The position numbers and the translations under genes were made by a program. Under the pieces are notes generated by a model. That model saw only the letters and a list, made by a program, of their open reading frames with translations. It searched no databases and was not told the origin of the DNA. DNA of 57,230 nucleotides from a virus. The stretch is taken from the IMG/VR virus record IMGVR_UViG_3300025327_000033, positions 1 through 57,230 of that record. One strand, written 5' to 3'. This document shows positions 21,575-37,876 of the stretch, one piece after another (the first letter of the stretch is position 1; each line of letters opens with the position of its first letter).

Positions 21575-21907
21575 TCACTCCTCGCCATCGAGCCACCCCC
21601 AGGCCTCAAGTGTGTTGCCCTGCTTCGTCCACTTGACGCGCAACTTGTAGCGCCGGCTGGGCACCAAGTTGATGACCAGTGCCGTCGTGATCACGCCAGC
21701 GCTTTCGGTGGTGTTACCGCTCAGGTACTTCCCCCCGCCGCCGACCGCGGCGAGGTCCAGTCGGCGACCCTGGTCGTCCTCGATCTCGGTGCTGGGTGCG
21801 CTCACAGCACCCGTGCCTGGCCAGTCGGCGGTGTCGACGGTGTAGGCCACAGCTTCGTTCCTGCCCTGGCCCCTCGGGGTATTCTTCAGCTGCCTCGTCT
21901 GTGCCAT
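21575..21907 (-). CDS. Fibre-tail adaptor-like virion protein
   Basis: It has 110 residues, all beta (AVAYTVDTADWPG, VITTALVINLVPSRRYKLRVKW, LEAWGWLDGEE). The pattern is like small adaptors that sit between fibres and the tail tip. It lies directly downstream of the repeat-rich fibre gene. Assigned by pattern and position only. Confidence 0.5.
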   Translation of the reverse strand: MAQTRQLKNTPRGQGRNEAVAYTVDTADWPGTGAVSAPSTEIEDDQGRRLDLAAVGGGGKYLSGNTTESAGVITTALVINLVPSRRYKLRVKWTKQGNTLEAWGWLDGEE

Positions 21908-21908
21908 A

Positions 21909-23444
21909 TCACACTCCCAGCTCGAGGTCTCTCGGCGGCAGGCGCATTGTAATCTCCCTGGGCGGCAGTTCGAGCGCCACGACCCGGGACGGCACAAACA
22001 GCGGCGTGGTGCCTTCGAAGGGGATCCCTGCGCTCTCCCATTGACCAGCGGCGGTTCCTGCGATCCCGAGCAGAGCCTCCCAAATGCCGGACGCCTGCTG
22101 CACCGCCCCCGATTGCAGAGCTTCCCATGCGCTGCTGCGGATCCCAGTGATGGTCGCCAGCGCCTCGTATTGGCCACCCGCAGTCTGGCTCGCGAATCCG
22201 AAGGCCTCGTGCAGGGCTGTGGCCTGGCCGGCTACGCTCTGCAGGCTCTCCCAGGATCCGGCTCGGGCGCTGGCTGTTGGCTGCGATGACTCGACTTGGC
22301 CAGTAGCCTGCGCCGTGGGCGCTGACAGTGCCTCGTGCTCGCCCGCCGACGCCTTGGCTGCGGGCCCAGCGGATTCCCACTGACCTGTCGCTTCCTGGGA
22401 GACTGCGCCCTCGACGACGAGGGATTCCCATTGGCCGGTGGCCGCCAGCGATGCCGAGGCCAAGCTCTCCCACGAATTGCTTCCTGCCAGGCTGACGGGA
22501 GCGACCGCCTCCATCTGCTCCGTCGCCGATTGTGTGACGGGCGCGCTGGCTTCCCATGCGCCCGCAGCCGTAAGCTGGGGTGCCACAAGGCTTTCGTGTT
22601 GTGCGGTCGCTGCCTGCTGCGCCGGCGACACCGCCTCGTGCTGGGCAACCACCGCCGGGCTCAGGCTGCCGGCGGCCTCGAATTGCAGTGTGCCCCCGGC
22701 GGTAATGCCCTGCAGGCTCTCCCACACGGCCGTGGCTGTTGCCTGCACGTCCTGCAGTCCCTCGTGCGCCCCAGCGGCCGTCTGCGCCAGTGGCTGCAGG
22801 CTCTCGTGTTGTCCAGTCGCAGTCGGGCTGAGACTCCCGGCCGCCTCTGACTGGCCTGTCGCGGTCGCGGCCAGGCCCAGCATGGCTTCGAACGCCCCGG
22901 CGCTCGCCGGGGCGAGACCGAACAGTGCTTCGTACTGACCGCCGGCGCTCGCCGTCGCCGGAAGGATCCACTCGAATTGCCCCGCAGCCGTCGTCGTCAC
23001 CACGCCCGAGGCTTCGAGCTGGGCATCCGCCTGCGCCGTCAGGCCCGTCAGGGCCTCGAGCTGCCCGGCTGCGGTTTGTGCCAGACCAAAGAGCGCCTCC
23101 AGCTGGGCGCTGGCGGTCTGTGCCGCCGGTTGCAGCGCCTCCAGCTGCCCACTGGCCGTCTGTGTCGCTGGCTGCAGCGCCTCCAGCTGGGCGCTGGCCG
23201 TTGGGTTGAGGCTGAATGCGGCTTCGAATTGACCGCCAGCGGTCTGTGCGGCGGCCGCCAGCCACTCGATCTGGCCACTCGCTATCTGCGAGAGCGATCC
23301 ATCCGCTTCGACCTGGCCGCTGGCCGTCGCGGCCAGCCCGAGGAGTGCCTCGTGCGCCCCCGAGCCAGCTTGCGCGACGTTCCCGTGGACGACCTTGTTC
23401 CGTCGCCTGATGAAGTCGCGCGGCCGCCGGTAGACCCACGCCAC
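21909..23444 (-). CDS. Virion protein made of ~31 tandem 14-residue repeats
   Basis: It has 511 residues. After an Arg-rich N-terminus, residues ~28-470 are tandem 14-mers of the form GQxEALxxxAxTAS. The Glu at position 4 of each unit is essentially invariant and aromatics often precede it (WESL, QFEA). Only two units have length changes (+3, +1). The C-terminal 40 residues (LELPPREITMRLPPRDLEL) are unrelated to the repeat and resemble tail-adaptor ends. Regular spacing suggests a solenoid or fibrous shaft. It is probably a tail fibre or decorating fibre between the tail genes and the lysis genes. Confidence 0.7.
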   Translation of the reverse strand: MAWVYRRPRDFIRRRNKVVHGNVAQAGSGAHEALLGLAATASGQVEADGSLSQIASGQIEWLAAAAQTAGGQFEAAFSLNPTASAQLEALQPATQTASGQLEALQPAAQTASAQLEALFGLAQTAAGQLEALTGLTAQADAQLEASGVVTTTAAGQFEWILPATASAGGQYEALFGLAPASAGAFEAMLGLAATATGQSEAAGSLSPTATGQHESLQPLAQTAAGAHEGLQDVQATATAVWESLQGITAGGTLQFEAAGSLSPAVVAQHEAVSPAQQAATAQHESLVAPQLTAAGAWEASAPVTQSATEQMEAVAPVSLAGSNSWESLASASLAATGQWESLVVEGAVSQEATGQWESAGPAAKASAGEHEALSAPTAQATGQVESSQPTASARAGSWESLQSVAGQATALHEAFGFASQTAGGQYEALATITGIRSSAWEALQSGAVQQASGIWEALLGIAGTAAGQWESAGIPFEGTTPLFVPSRVVALELPPREITMRLPPRDLELGV

Positions 23445-23891
23445 TCAACCGATCTCCTCGAAGATCATGCCAGCCGAAATGTTGATCGAGGCCGCGGGCG
23501 CTACCGCGAACCGCACTGCCAGGATGCCGGACGGCGCGACAACGATCCTTGCTTCTGGCACCGGCACATAGAACCACCCGTTCAGGATGTTGAACCCTTC
23601 CCGGCGTAGCTCGTCGCCTAGAGTGCCCTCCGCTGACATGTTGGTCCGGCACGTCCCGCCGAACGCCGCATCGCTCGGATTCAGTAGCCGGGCCGTGAAT
23701 GCAGTTCCCGTGCCCGCCGCTGACTTCCTCACAATCGACGCCACCTCCTGCGTGCTCGTCTCGCTGCCGTCCTGGCTGATCCACGCCTCGATGAGCCGCA
23801 GGATCGCATCACTCGGCGCAGTGACCTCCACGAGGCTCCTCTGTGTCGAGACGGCGACGCTCTCCATTTCTGCTACGTAGATTCGTCCCAT
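23445..23891 (-). CDS. Virion-associated beta protein
   Basis: It has 148 residues, beta-rich (GRIYVAEMESVAVSTQRSLVEV; ILAVRFAVAPAASINISAGM). It resembles a small family I recall in environmental phages next to fibre genes. No enzyme motif is visible. Confidence 0.5.
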   Translation of the reverse strand: MGRIYVAEMESVAVSTQRSLVEVTAPSDAILRLIEAWISQDGSETSTQEVASIVRKSAAGTGTAFTARLLNPSDAAFGGTCRTNMSAEGTLGDELRREGFNILNGWFYVPVPEARIVVAPSGILAVRFAVAPAASINISAGMIFEEIG

Positions 23892-23903: not shown

Positions 23904-25436
23904 TCAGGCCGCGAGGCGCAAGGGCAGTTCATCGCCGCGCCGCGGCTTCATCGTGATCGGCGTGTTTCGCGCCCGCCGCGGCCTGGTGCTTGGCGGGAAG
24001 GTGACGCCGCTAGAGCTGTATTCGATGTGGAGCTTGGCGGCAGTGGTTGTCGAGTTGTTGTATGTCAGAACACCCAAATCACGATTCGAATTTGAGGTGT
24101 GCTGCTCAAAGATCAGTACCAGGGCATTGTTTTCGGCCCATCCCCCCTGGTCTACAATCTCCTGAATGATTGCCTTGATGTCAGCACCGGATGTTGGGCT
24201 GCCGTTGGGTGCTCCCCACTGCCATTCCTCTCCAGCAGTAGCCCCAAGGTCAGTTGAATCCCAATTGATTGTCGCCGTCGTCCTAGTGCGTCCATCTATA
24301 TCGTTGGCATTTGTGGTGAATGTCCCTGGATTGGCGGCCAATTCCCCACGTAATTGATGTTGTGGCTCATCCGTGGTGGTGGCTTGAATGAATACGCTCA
24401 TCCAAGCACTATCAATAGTGGCTCCGACTGGAACGCCAACTGTTGTCCAGCGATTGCCACCATGTTCTGTAGTTATATCTACGATGTAGTTGGCTCCAGT
24501 CAACAAGACCGAATCATTTGTTGCCTGAACAGCGTCGTCGGAGTCTGCCCCAACCTGCTCGTCAATCGTCACGTCAATTTCAACAGGATAATCCGCCGCT
24601 TGAAGCCAAGAGATCGGGATGCGATGCTCGACAAACAGGTTAGGCCCGGTCCTGCGAAGTCTGAACGTCCCGATCAGCTCATCCGGGTCCTGATCCTCGA
24701 CCGGCGCAGCGTTGGATCGCGGCAGGTTGAAGCTCCACAGGACTTCGCCCGTTGTGCTGTGACGGAACTCGACATAGCCCTGAGTATCGACCGGATTGTT
24801 GACCGCCCGGTTCCACAGGACACCATTCACGAAGATGTCGATGCCGTTTGAGACTTGGAAGATGAACTGCAACCGGGCGACTGGATTGCCGCCTGCGATG
24901 ATCTGAGCGGTTGGAGCAGGCCACCGTGAAGCCTGATCCACAATCAGGCGCTTGTCCAGGCGTGCGGTCTGCGCCTGCCAGCGGATGTCCATACCCGGCC
25001 CGAATGCGCCCTGCCACAACAGGACATCCTCGTTCTGTACGACTGCACTCACCGACTGCGGGTTGGCGATAGCCTGAATCTGGTCTAGGTCGTTCGTGTA
25101 CTGGAGTTGCTGGGGCTGGAAGGCGATGCTCTCGCCAGTCCCCGGATGGACGTACTTGACGATCTGGCCCGAGGAGAAGTCGGCCAGGGCGAATGCGTTG
25201 TAGCCAGCCTGCACCATCTGGAAGTCCCAGGGCGCAACGCCGGGCTGCCACGCGGTGTTGATCTCCTGATCCTCGGCAGGCCCATAGTGCATCGGGCCAA
25301 TGCCGATGTCCAGCATGAACTTGCTTGGAATCGTTGGGTGCTGGTGCTTGATAGAGTTGCGGAGACGCGCAACAACCGTGGCACCAGGCCACAGTTGTTG
25401 AGCCCTATCCCTGGCTTCCTTCGCAGGATGCGCCAT
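23904..25436 (-). CDS. Large tail fibre/host-recognition candidate
   Basis: It has 510 residues, mostly beta. The N-terminal region (WPGATVVARLRNSIKHQH.. WDFQMVQAGYNAFALAD) is probably the virion-attachment part. The C-terminal ~200 residues (TIDSAWMSVFIQATTTDEPQHQLRGELA.., LHIEYSS) look like a jelly-roll/lectin-like sandwich. The C-terminal coding half is clearly more A+T-rich than the genome, consistent with an exchanged receptor-binding domain. Ends in a basic tail. Confidence 0.6.
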   Translation of the reverse strand: MAHPAKEARDRAQQLWPGATVVARLRNSIKHQHPTIPSKFMLDIGIGPMHYGPAEDQEINTAWQPGVAPWDFQMVQAGYNAFALADFSSGQIVKYVHPGTGESIAFQPQQLQYTNDLDQIQAIANPQSVSAVVQNEDVLLWQGAFGPGMDIRWQAQTARLDKRLIVDQASRWPAPTAQIIAGGNPVARLQFIFQVSNGIDIFVNGVLWNRAVNNPVDTQGYVEFRHSTTGEVLWSFNLPRSNAAPVEDQDPDELIGTFRLRRTGPNLFVEHRIPISWLQAADYPVEIDVTIDEQVGADSDDAVQATNDSVLLTGANYIVDITTEHGGNRWTTVGVPVGATIDSAWMSVFIQATTTDEPQHQLRGELAANPGTFTTNANDIDGRTRTTATINWDSTDLGATAGEEWQWGAPNGSPTSGADIKAIIQEIVDQGGWAENNALVLIFEQHTSNSNRDLGVLTYNNSTTTAAKLHIEYSSSGVTFPPSTRPRRARNTPITMKPRRGDELPLRLAA

Positions 25437-26015: not shown

Positions 26016-26750
26016 TCAGACGCTCGTGCCGCTCAGCTGCACCGTATAGCTGTTCTTGATCGGCGCGTCGCTGGCCAGCAGGTCCTGCTCGACCCACACA
26101 CCGATGGCACTTCCCGCCTCGAGGGTCGTCCCGGGCACATCCTGGTCGGTGGCGTCGTCGACGAACGTGACACTCCCTGGCAGCGTCTTGCGGTTGGCCA
26201 CACTCTGCGTTCCGTCCTTGCTGGCCTCTCCGCCGATGCGGATGCGGGTTGCTGGGTCAGCCGTCAGCCGGATCTTGGCGCTGTTCAGCGTGAGGCTGCC
26301 GTGGTTGTTCAGCCAGAAAATCTTCTCATAGCGTTCGACACTGGCGGCCTCGCTGGCCGAGTTCTGGAACTGCATCGACACGCTCGTGATGTTGAGCCCG
26401 ATGGTGGCCCGCGTGGCCCCGCCCGATCCCTGGCGCACCGTGACGATCCGGGTGGCACTCGAGGTCGTCGTGATCTTGGTGATGCGCTCAAACGTGGTGG
26501 TGCCCACCACTTCGGTCGTGCCGTTCAGGACCAGGGCTTCGTTCACCAGGGCCCCGGCGGCGTTGCGACCGTAGACCGTGACGGTCCGTGTGTCGGCCCC
26601 ATCGGAGATCACGGCGATCACGCTGTTGGCCGTCAGCTGTGTGAACTCCGGCTTGTTGGCGGCGTCTCGGGCTCCGCCGGAGGCGGACGTGTCGTCCTCT
26701 GGCCGGCTGGCCGCTCCCTGCAGTACGAGGTCAGTGGCTGCTATTGGCAT
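26016..26750 (-). CDS. Beta-rich tail/fibre protein
   Basis: It has 244 residues. Begins MPIAATDLVLQGAASRPEDDTS, a start seen in environmental phage tail proteins. Repeated beta strands with Thr/Val follow (TRTVTVYGRNAAG, ITTTSSATRIVTVRQG), suggesting Ig-like sandwiches. No cysteines or enzyme motifs. Likely structural. Confidence 0.55.
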   Translation of the reverse strand: MPIAATDLVLQGAASRPEDDTSASGGARDAANKPEFTQLTANSVIAVISDGADTRTVTVYGRNAAGALVNEALVLNGTTEVVGTTTFERITKITTTSSATRIVTVRQGSGGATRATIGLNITSVSMQFQNSASEAASVERYEKIFWLNNHGSLTLNSAKIRLTADPATRIRIGGEASKDGTQSVANRKTLPGSVTFVDDATDQDVPGTTLEAGSAIGVWVEQDLLASDAPIKNSYTVQLSGTSV

Positions 26751-36643: not shown

Positions 36644-37084
36644 CTACGGCTTGGTCGTCCACCCCGGGGCCGTCGAGGTCGTGGGCCGCATGCTGGCCGC
36701 GATCGTCAGTTTGCCCTGGGGCGTCGCCGCGATGTTCAGCTTCGAGCACCAGAATTCGCCGGTGAACCGTGGGTCGCCCGTCGTGGGCAGTGCGCCCTGG
36801 CCGACGTCGATCGTCAGCGTCTTGCTGACCGCGCTCTGGCCGACGATGCCCTTCAGCACCTGGTACAGGCTGAGGGCCGTGGCATCGAAGTCCCCGGCGA
36901 TCTCCACCGGGAAGCTTGGCATGCCGGCGATCGAGCGCACCGCGCCATCGGTGAATCCCGTGGCATCGAGCTCGCCGTACTCGTCGGGGATGTCAACCGA
37001 GTTGACGTCCTTCGAGACGTCCCGAAGCACCGCTCCCGAGTCGTCGATCTGGACCTGCAGGTATTGCCCATTCAGCTTGGCCAT
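36644..37084 (-). CDS. Tail tube-like protein, copy 2
   Basis: It has 146 residues: MAKLNGQYLQVQIDDSG..DIPDEYGELDATGFTDG.., LTIDVGQGALPTTGDPRFTGEFW. This matches phage tail tube/major tail proteins and is related in layout to the next gene upstream (MAKLSGQF..YTELDHTAF, ..GDPSLAVASRQFKVTV). The gap before it is short (21 bases). Likely polymerises around the tape measure. Confidence 0.7.
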   Translation of the reverse strand: MAKLNGQYLQVQIDDSGAVLRDVSKDVNSVDIPDEYGELDATGFTDGAVRSIAGMPSFPVEIAGDFDATALSLYQVLKGIVGQSAVSKTLTIDVGQGALPTTGDPRFTGEFWCSKLNIAATPQGKLTIAASMRPTTSTAPGWTTKP

Positions 37085-37105: not shown

Positions 37106-37876
37106 CTAGTTGGCGGCCAGCATGATGGCGAACGTCAGCTCGTCTGCTGCCGCGCCCGTTCGAGTGAGCAGGCACCGCCAGTAGCGGTCCAGGCTCGTCG
37201 TCTGCTTGATCCGCTCGCTGGTGCGGGTCGCCCCGTTGGCAGCGAACGTAATGTAGTCTGCCCACGCCGTTCCGTTCGGGCTGTGTTGGATCTTGATCGA
37301 GTACGTGTCGGTCCCCGGCGTGTCTTCGGTCGTCGCCTTGAGCACGTGCAGATAGCCGGTGCCGCCAGCGGCATAGGGCCCGACAGCGGTGTCGACGGTT
37401 GTGCCCGTCAGCGTGTTGGTGATCGTCGTGTAGCCCAGGACCTGACCGAGATCCGGCTTCTGGCCGACGGTCTTGAAATTGGCCTGGATCAGCATCTTGG
37501 CGTTCGGCTGTGCCGGCACTGTGACCTTGAACTGCCGGCTGGCGACTGCCAGACTCGGGTCGCCTGGCACCGGGCTCGCCCCCTGGCCGATCAGGACACT
37601 GAGGAGCTTCTCGATCGTGTTGTTCCCCGGCTCGCGCAGCGCCTTCCACACGCTCGTCTCAGGGCCTGGCGTGGCGTCCGGCTGCGGGTCGAAGAAGGAC
37701 TCGACCGACGCATCCAGCAACGGCATGCCGGCCTCGCTGCCCATCACGCCGTCCAGAAATGCCGTGTGGTCCAGCTCTGTGTACTCCACGCCCATGCCGT
37801 CAAAGGACCGAGTGCGTCCGCTGATGTCGTACCCATGAAACAGCACGGCGCAGAATTGGCCGCTAAGCTTCGCCAC
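37106..37876 (-). CDS. Tail tube-like protein, copy 1
   Basis: It has 256 residues, beta-rich. It shares the opening MAKLxGQ and the mid-motif GDPxxxxxxxxF with the downstream tail protein but is longer by an insertion around residues 150-240 (YSIKIQHSPNGTAWADYITFA.., RYWRCLLTRTG), which could be a surface domain. One copy may form the tube and the other a terminator or initiator. Overlaps the upstream gene by 14 bases. Confidence 0.65.
   Translation of the reverse strand: MAKLSGQFCAVLFHGYDISGRTRSFDGMGVEYTELDHTAFLDGVMGSEAGMPLLDASVESFFDPQPDATPGPETSVWKALREPGNNTIEKLLSVLIGQGASPVPGDPSLAVASRQFKVTVPAQPNAKMLIQANFKTVGQKPDLGQVLGYTTITNTLTGTTVDTAVGPYAAGGTGYLHVLKATTEDTPGTDTYSIKIQHSPNGTAWADYITFAANGATRTSERIKQTTSLDRYWRCLLTRTGAAADELTFAIMLAAN

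Follow-up and report, generated by a model that had tools for sequence, protein, structure and literature searches.

A family of phage repeat arrays built from 14-residue units with an invariant glutamate

The array gene and its repeat unit

The window analysed here, the whole 57,230-base stretch of an uncultured bacterial virus record, carries on its minus strand a gene for a 511-residue protein with a long tandem repeat array. The features of the gene and its surroundings are as follows.

26016–26750, minus: gene for a 244-aa protein, the first cassette gene
23904–25436, minus: gene for a 510-aa protein, between cassette genes
23445–23891, minus: gene for a 148-aa MxIY-type protein, directly upstream of the array gene
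23454–23459, minus: GAGGAG, candidate ribosome-binding-like site read from the sequence
21909–23444, minus: array gene, GTG start, 511 aa
23361–23444, minus: N-terminal leader, residues 1–28, Arg-rich and basic (from translation)
22005–23360, minus: 32 tandem units, residues 29–480, each with Glu at position 4
23092–23201, minus: repetitive stretch at the DNA level, 42-base period, 2.6 copies, 85% matches
22386–22436, minus: 17-residue unit, residues 337–353
22089–22133, minus: 15-residue unit, residues 438–452
21909–22004, minus: C-terminal tail, residues 481–511, plus stop (from translation)
21575–21907, minus: gene for a 110-aa protein downstream of the array gene, at the position of the homologues' BppU_N-like gene

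The GAGGAG motif lies 9 bases 5′ of the array-gene GTG, inside the 3′ end of the preceding gene. Internal stops ruled out a plus-strand reading of the same interval, and an overlapping minus-strand ORF of 632 aa (21886–23784) is a shadow frame, because its GC content is lowest at codon position 3.

The regularity of the array is pronounced. Glu occupies position 4 in all 32 units (residues 32, 46, ... 470), and 29 of the 31 Glu-to-Glu intervals are exactly 14 residues long, the exceptions being 17 (E340–E357) and 15 (E441–E456). The sequence-only reading had described this strict spacing with two length exceptions and the invariant Glu, both of which held; its tandem array stood as well, with the count corrected from about 31 units to 32. 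Residue identity at lag 14 reached 0.304, with similar values at lags 28, 42 and 56, against a background of about 0.10; in 1000 shuffles no lag exceeded 0.169. Much of the array consists of Ala, Gly, Ser, Thr and Gln, and 9 of the 32 units have Pro at position 8.

Further analysis of the codons revealed how the pattern is maintained. The invariant Glu is encoded by 22 GAG and 10 GAA codons, and unit-to-unit identity at codon positions 1, 2 and 3 was 0.479, 0.488 and 0.375, with chance values of 0.334, 0.283 and 0.332, respectively. Positions 1 and 2 are thus well above chance and position 3 is near it, indicating that selection on the protein maintains the pattern. The units are therefore old and constrained at the protein level, and an artefact of repetitive DNA is excluded. 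Around units 5–7 (23092–23201), the DNA-level repeat looks like a recent duplication.

Homologous arrays and the four-unit period

Searches with the array protein gave no match at E ≤ 1 in Pfam, PHROGs or NCBIfam, in keeping with the failure of the sequence-only reading to recognise a named family. No convincing chain was found among PDB sequences, no relatives were found in annotated phages by tblastn or in viral contigs by peptide patterns, and a literature search found no description of a 14-residue repeat. Scanning a viral collection with DNA patterns for several in-register units, however, identified at least three homologous arrays in other uncultured phages among the matches listed (L094, L127 and L262); other pattern matches were set aside as coiled coils or other repeats. 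When about 900 genomes, from the phyla to which three bacterial contigs belong, were searched with an array profile, two weak matches appeared, of which one was a coiled coil on inspection and the other had E 1.1e-5. The array protein of L127 matched no named family in Pfam, PHROGs or NCBIfam, and that of L094 matched only two PHROGs, both of unknown function (E 0.02 and 0.29).

The L127 array (307 aa) and its near twin in L262 each contain 17 units and the L094 array (326 aa) contains 14, so that unit number, whose variation between related genomes the sequence-only reading had proposed as a check, does differ between related cassettes (32, 17, 17 and 14). The three arrays share with the window array the 14-residue unit, the invariant Glu4 in every unit, the cassette partners and the four-unit tendency described below; they differ in their 14–17 units, in having His or Tyr rather than Trp, Leu or Phe at position 3, and in the placement of the cassette in the head block, and the N-terminal part of the L094 protein is also different. 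Across the family, Gly or Ala predominates at position 1, position 3 is aromatic, His or hydrophobic, position 5 is mostly Ala or Ser, and positions 6 and 9 are mostly hydrophobic, often Leu. Between L127 and L262 there are 27 synonymous and 15 non-synonymous codon differences, none of which alters the amino acid at unit positions 3, 4 or 5.

Comparison of units at increasing distances, with unit order permuted as the control, showed raised similarity four units apart in the window (z 3.57, p 0.0004) and in L127 (z 3.05, p 0.0024), with a weak rise in L094 (z 1.6). The combined z for distance four over these three arrays was 4.75 and no other distance was prominent; nine distances were examined and distance four was not specified in advance. 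The recurrence can be followed in an E-A/S-x-G type of unit, found at units 9, 13 and 17 of the window (also at 2, 24 and 32), at units 5, 9 and 13 of L127 and at units 6 and 10 of L094. The excess resides in codon positions 1 and 2 (z 3.6 in the window, 3.5 in L127) and barely in position 3 (1.0 and 1.5), which argues for a super-period that is mainly a property of the protein and not of recent block duplication. A higher-order repeat of four units, or 56 residues, is therefore likely, and this period is new here, being absent from the sequence-only reading.

A cassette shared by four phages

All four records have in common a cassette consisting of the 244-aa protein, a small MxIY protein and the array. 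The window 244-aa protein is 75% identical to that encoded at 919–1653 of L127 and 70% identical to its counterpart in the record of L094; used as a probe against about 700 genomes and against phage and plasmid records, it gave no match. The 148-aa protein groups with the MxIY genes 5′ of the homologous arrays (hhalign 96.7%, tblastn 32%). No relatives were found when the 893-aa and 148-aa window neighbours were used as probes of the viral collection. The 148-aa protein also gave a weak Pfam match to Potex_coat (E 4.7e-4, below the cut-off) and a match to a coat protein chain of satellite panicum mosaic virus (E 0.006), and may perhaps have a jelly-roll-like fold.

A BppU_N-like gene follows the array in three of three homologues. 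The L094 copy matches the Pfam family with E 7.2e-5 and 23.0 bits, just under the cut-off of 23.1, and the L127 copy is 64% identical to it. The 110-aa gene in the corresponding place in the window showed no detectable similarity to BppU_N or to the homologues' genes, and its assignment as a BppU_N homologue is unsupported. In the record of L094 the order is TerL, portal, a 245-aa protein, two small genes, two MxIY genes, one small ORF, the array, the BppU_N-like gene, head protease and major head protein. The L127 island includes a LamG-type gene (E 2.3e-13), with head protease and major head genes downstream. The cassette lies upstream of the head protease and major head protein genes in L094, L127 and L262, whereas in the window it comes after the tape measure and tail genes, just ahead of a transglycosylase gene. 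Because the cassette occupies different structural blocks, whether its products belong to the head or the tail is ambiguous. Elsewhere in the window, two adjacent minus-strand genes (36644–37084 and 37106–37876) each have matches to major tail protein families, phrog_9522 being common to the two, and a third (144–1733, minus) encodes a 529-aa protein with a ParB-like N-terminal part and a DNA methyltransferase.

Relatives of the window 510-aa protein carry other repeat arrays, fused to their C termini. In this family (the window and L002–L026), mean pairwise identity is 0.84–0.88 over residues 1–296 and 0.51–0.57 over residues 297–475, and a swappable repeat array comes next in many relatives, a layout suggestive of a conserved base bearing a variable domain. 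The fused 20-residue array of L012 differs from those of L014, L015 and L018 by exactly two units (EAASDAPSATLTQEAAIVEV) in otherwise near-identical proteins; barring an assembly effect, this would show directly that units are gained or lost. In L007 and L022, the first 1035 bases from the array junction are DNA-identical, whereas the 600 bases immediately upstream are only 18–65% identical in an ungapped comparison; this may reflect an exchange at the array boundary, or else the assembly may be chimeric. These fused arrays of 20–22 residues (L002–L024) resemble the window array in their phage virion-gene neighbourhood, strictly periodic Ala/Leu-rich units, acidic residue and variable unit number, but have another period and sequence and are fused to another domain rather than encoded by a gene of their own.

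Fold and probable role

Structure prediction was of low confidence both for the whole protein as a single sequence (AlphaFold2, pLDDT 44) and for eight units with 12 in-register alignment rows (pLDDT 47), the rows being drawn from the window and its homologues and chosen among trial sets for a gap-free MAFFT alignment. The regular solenoid or fibre proposed in the sequence-only reading is thus not established. The low-confidence models were helical, a feature that carries little evidential value. In all arrays, hydrophobic power was higher at period 3.5 than at periods 2.0–2.33 (0.21 in the window, 0.04 in L127 and 0.05 in L094). An array profile searched against the PDB matched designed armadillo proteins (E 4.6e-7) and the reversed profile matched none; this weak, direction-specific match is a hint of short helices that have Glu close to their start. 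Together, these weak hints favour short helices over β-strands: the G-x-x-E of each unit would start a short helix, with Glu as the helix cap and four units per structural repeat. Against helices count the two Gly or Pro residues per unit, which are unusual there, and the Pro at position 8 of some units. Armadillo-type solenoids have a three-helix repeat with a period of 42, whereas the window array has periods of 14 and 56; similarity three units apart was not raised (z 1.2, −0.18 and −0.54) and Pfam gave no match, and since a 42-residue period is not seen this is not an armadillo protein. An uninterrupted heptad coiled coil is ruled out by 2.0–2.4 Gly plus Pro per 14 residues across the arrays, and a collagen-like G-X-Y repeat by units that lack triplet Gly.

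We propose, with a probability of roughly 0.55, that the array is the rod-like shaft or spacer of an accessory virion fibre cassette, used for adhesion or decoration. The description as a virion protein in the sequence-only reading is supported as regards the structural-gene context; presence in the particle itself we infer from that context and the regular architecture. The array would be an elongated rod, longer or shorter according to its unit count, the small partner proteins would anchor the rod or carry binding domains, and the fibre would help the particle to attach to cells or glycans. What is known of the roles of decoration proteins and head fibres (PMC7602432, PMC6542822), together with the LamG- and BppU_N-like genes near the homologous arrays, makes attachment or decoration the most likely purpose. 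Our working analogy is the phi29 head fibre gp8.5, which is likewise accessory to the virion and has an elongated stem (PMC6542822; PMC7602432); gp8.5, however, is a trimer with a helix-turn-helix supercoil, and the window array has no sequence match to it. In siphophages, BppU N-domains serve to attach fibres and receptor-binding proteins to the tail (PMC7291167). The likeness to such baseplate fibres lies in the gene after the homologues' arrays; the array is not itself BppU-like, nor does the window downstream gene show a match.

Other readings of the array were weighed against this shaft. The 14-mer might instead fold into a pair of short β-strands that turn at Gly1 and at Gly/Pro8, forming a narrow β-solenoid or a trimeric β-spiral shaft, as the turn-like Gly at position 1, the Gly, Pro, Ser or Thr at position 8 and the Val-, Ile- and Leu-rich second halves of units in the homologues would allow. 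The viral fibre shaft of adenovirus, with about 15 residues per repeat, offers a precedent. The low hydrophobic power at periods 2.0–2.33 weighs somewhat against such a structure, since the strands of a β-solenoid would be expected to alternate in and out, as does, with little weight, the helical appearance of the models; PDB searches with the array matched no β-solenoid chain, and the interval of 14 in 29 of 31 cases departs from the repeat of about 15 expected of a triple β-spiral. We regard a β-structured fibre as possible but doubtful.

An intrinsically disordered or extensible linker, rich in Ala and Gly and Ser and without a regular fold, would account for the low pLDDT of both predictions and for the share of Ala, Gly, Ser, Thr and Gln in the composition; but a Glu4 invariant in all arrays, exact spacing in 29 of 31 intervals and a four-unit period exceed what a free linker needs, and make this account improbable. 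Least probable, and in our estimate very unlikely, is an internal or lysis-related protein instead of a surface fibre. The window array gene does stand just before the transglycosylase gene, and the basic leader could bind DNA or partners, yet the lysis neighbour is not conserved, given the position of the cassette upstream of the head protease and major head genes in the three homologues.

Together, these results identify a real, unclassified phage repeat family, of which the probable role is ordinary and the unit, the invariant Glu and the 56-residue super-period are unusual. More tentatively, and with the odds against it, the array may represent an undescribed fibrous or solenoid fold of Glu-capped 14-residue units in a four-unit repeat, serving uncultured phages as a length-adjustable shaft within a cassette that is found in different structural blocks. 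The fixed Glu and the 56-residue super-period pose a precise structural puzzle, and through the cassette several virion-region genes that lack annotation acquire a shared context. If the proposed role is correct, the array would be an unclassified repeat protein of the phage particle with a simple unit and a countable length, useful for studies of how fibre length evolves and usable as a modular rod.
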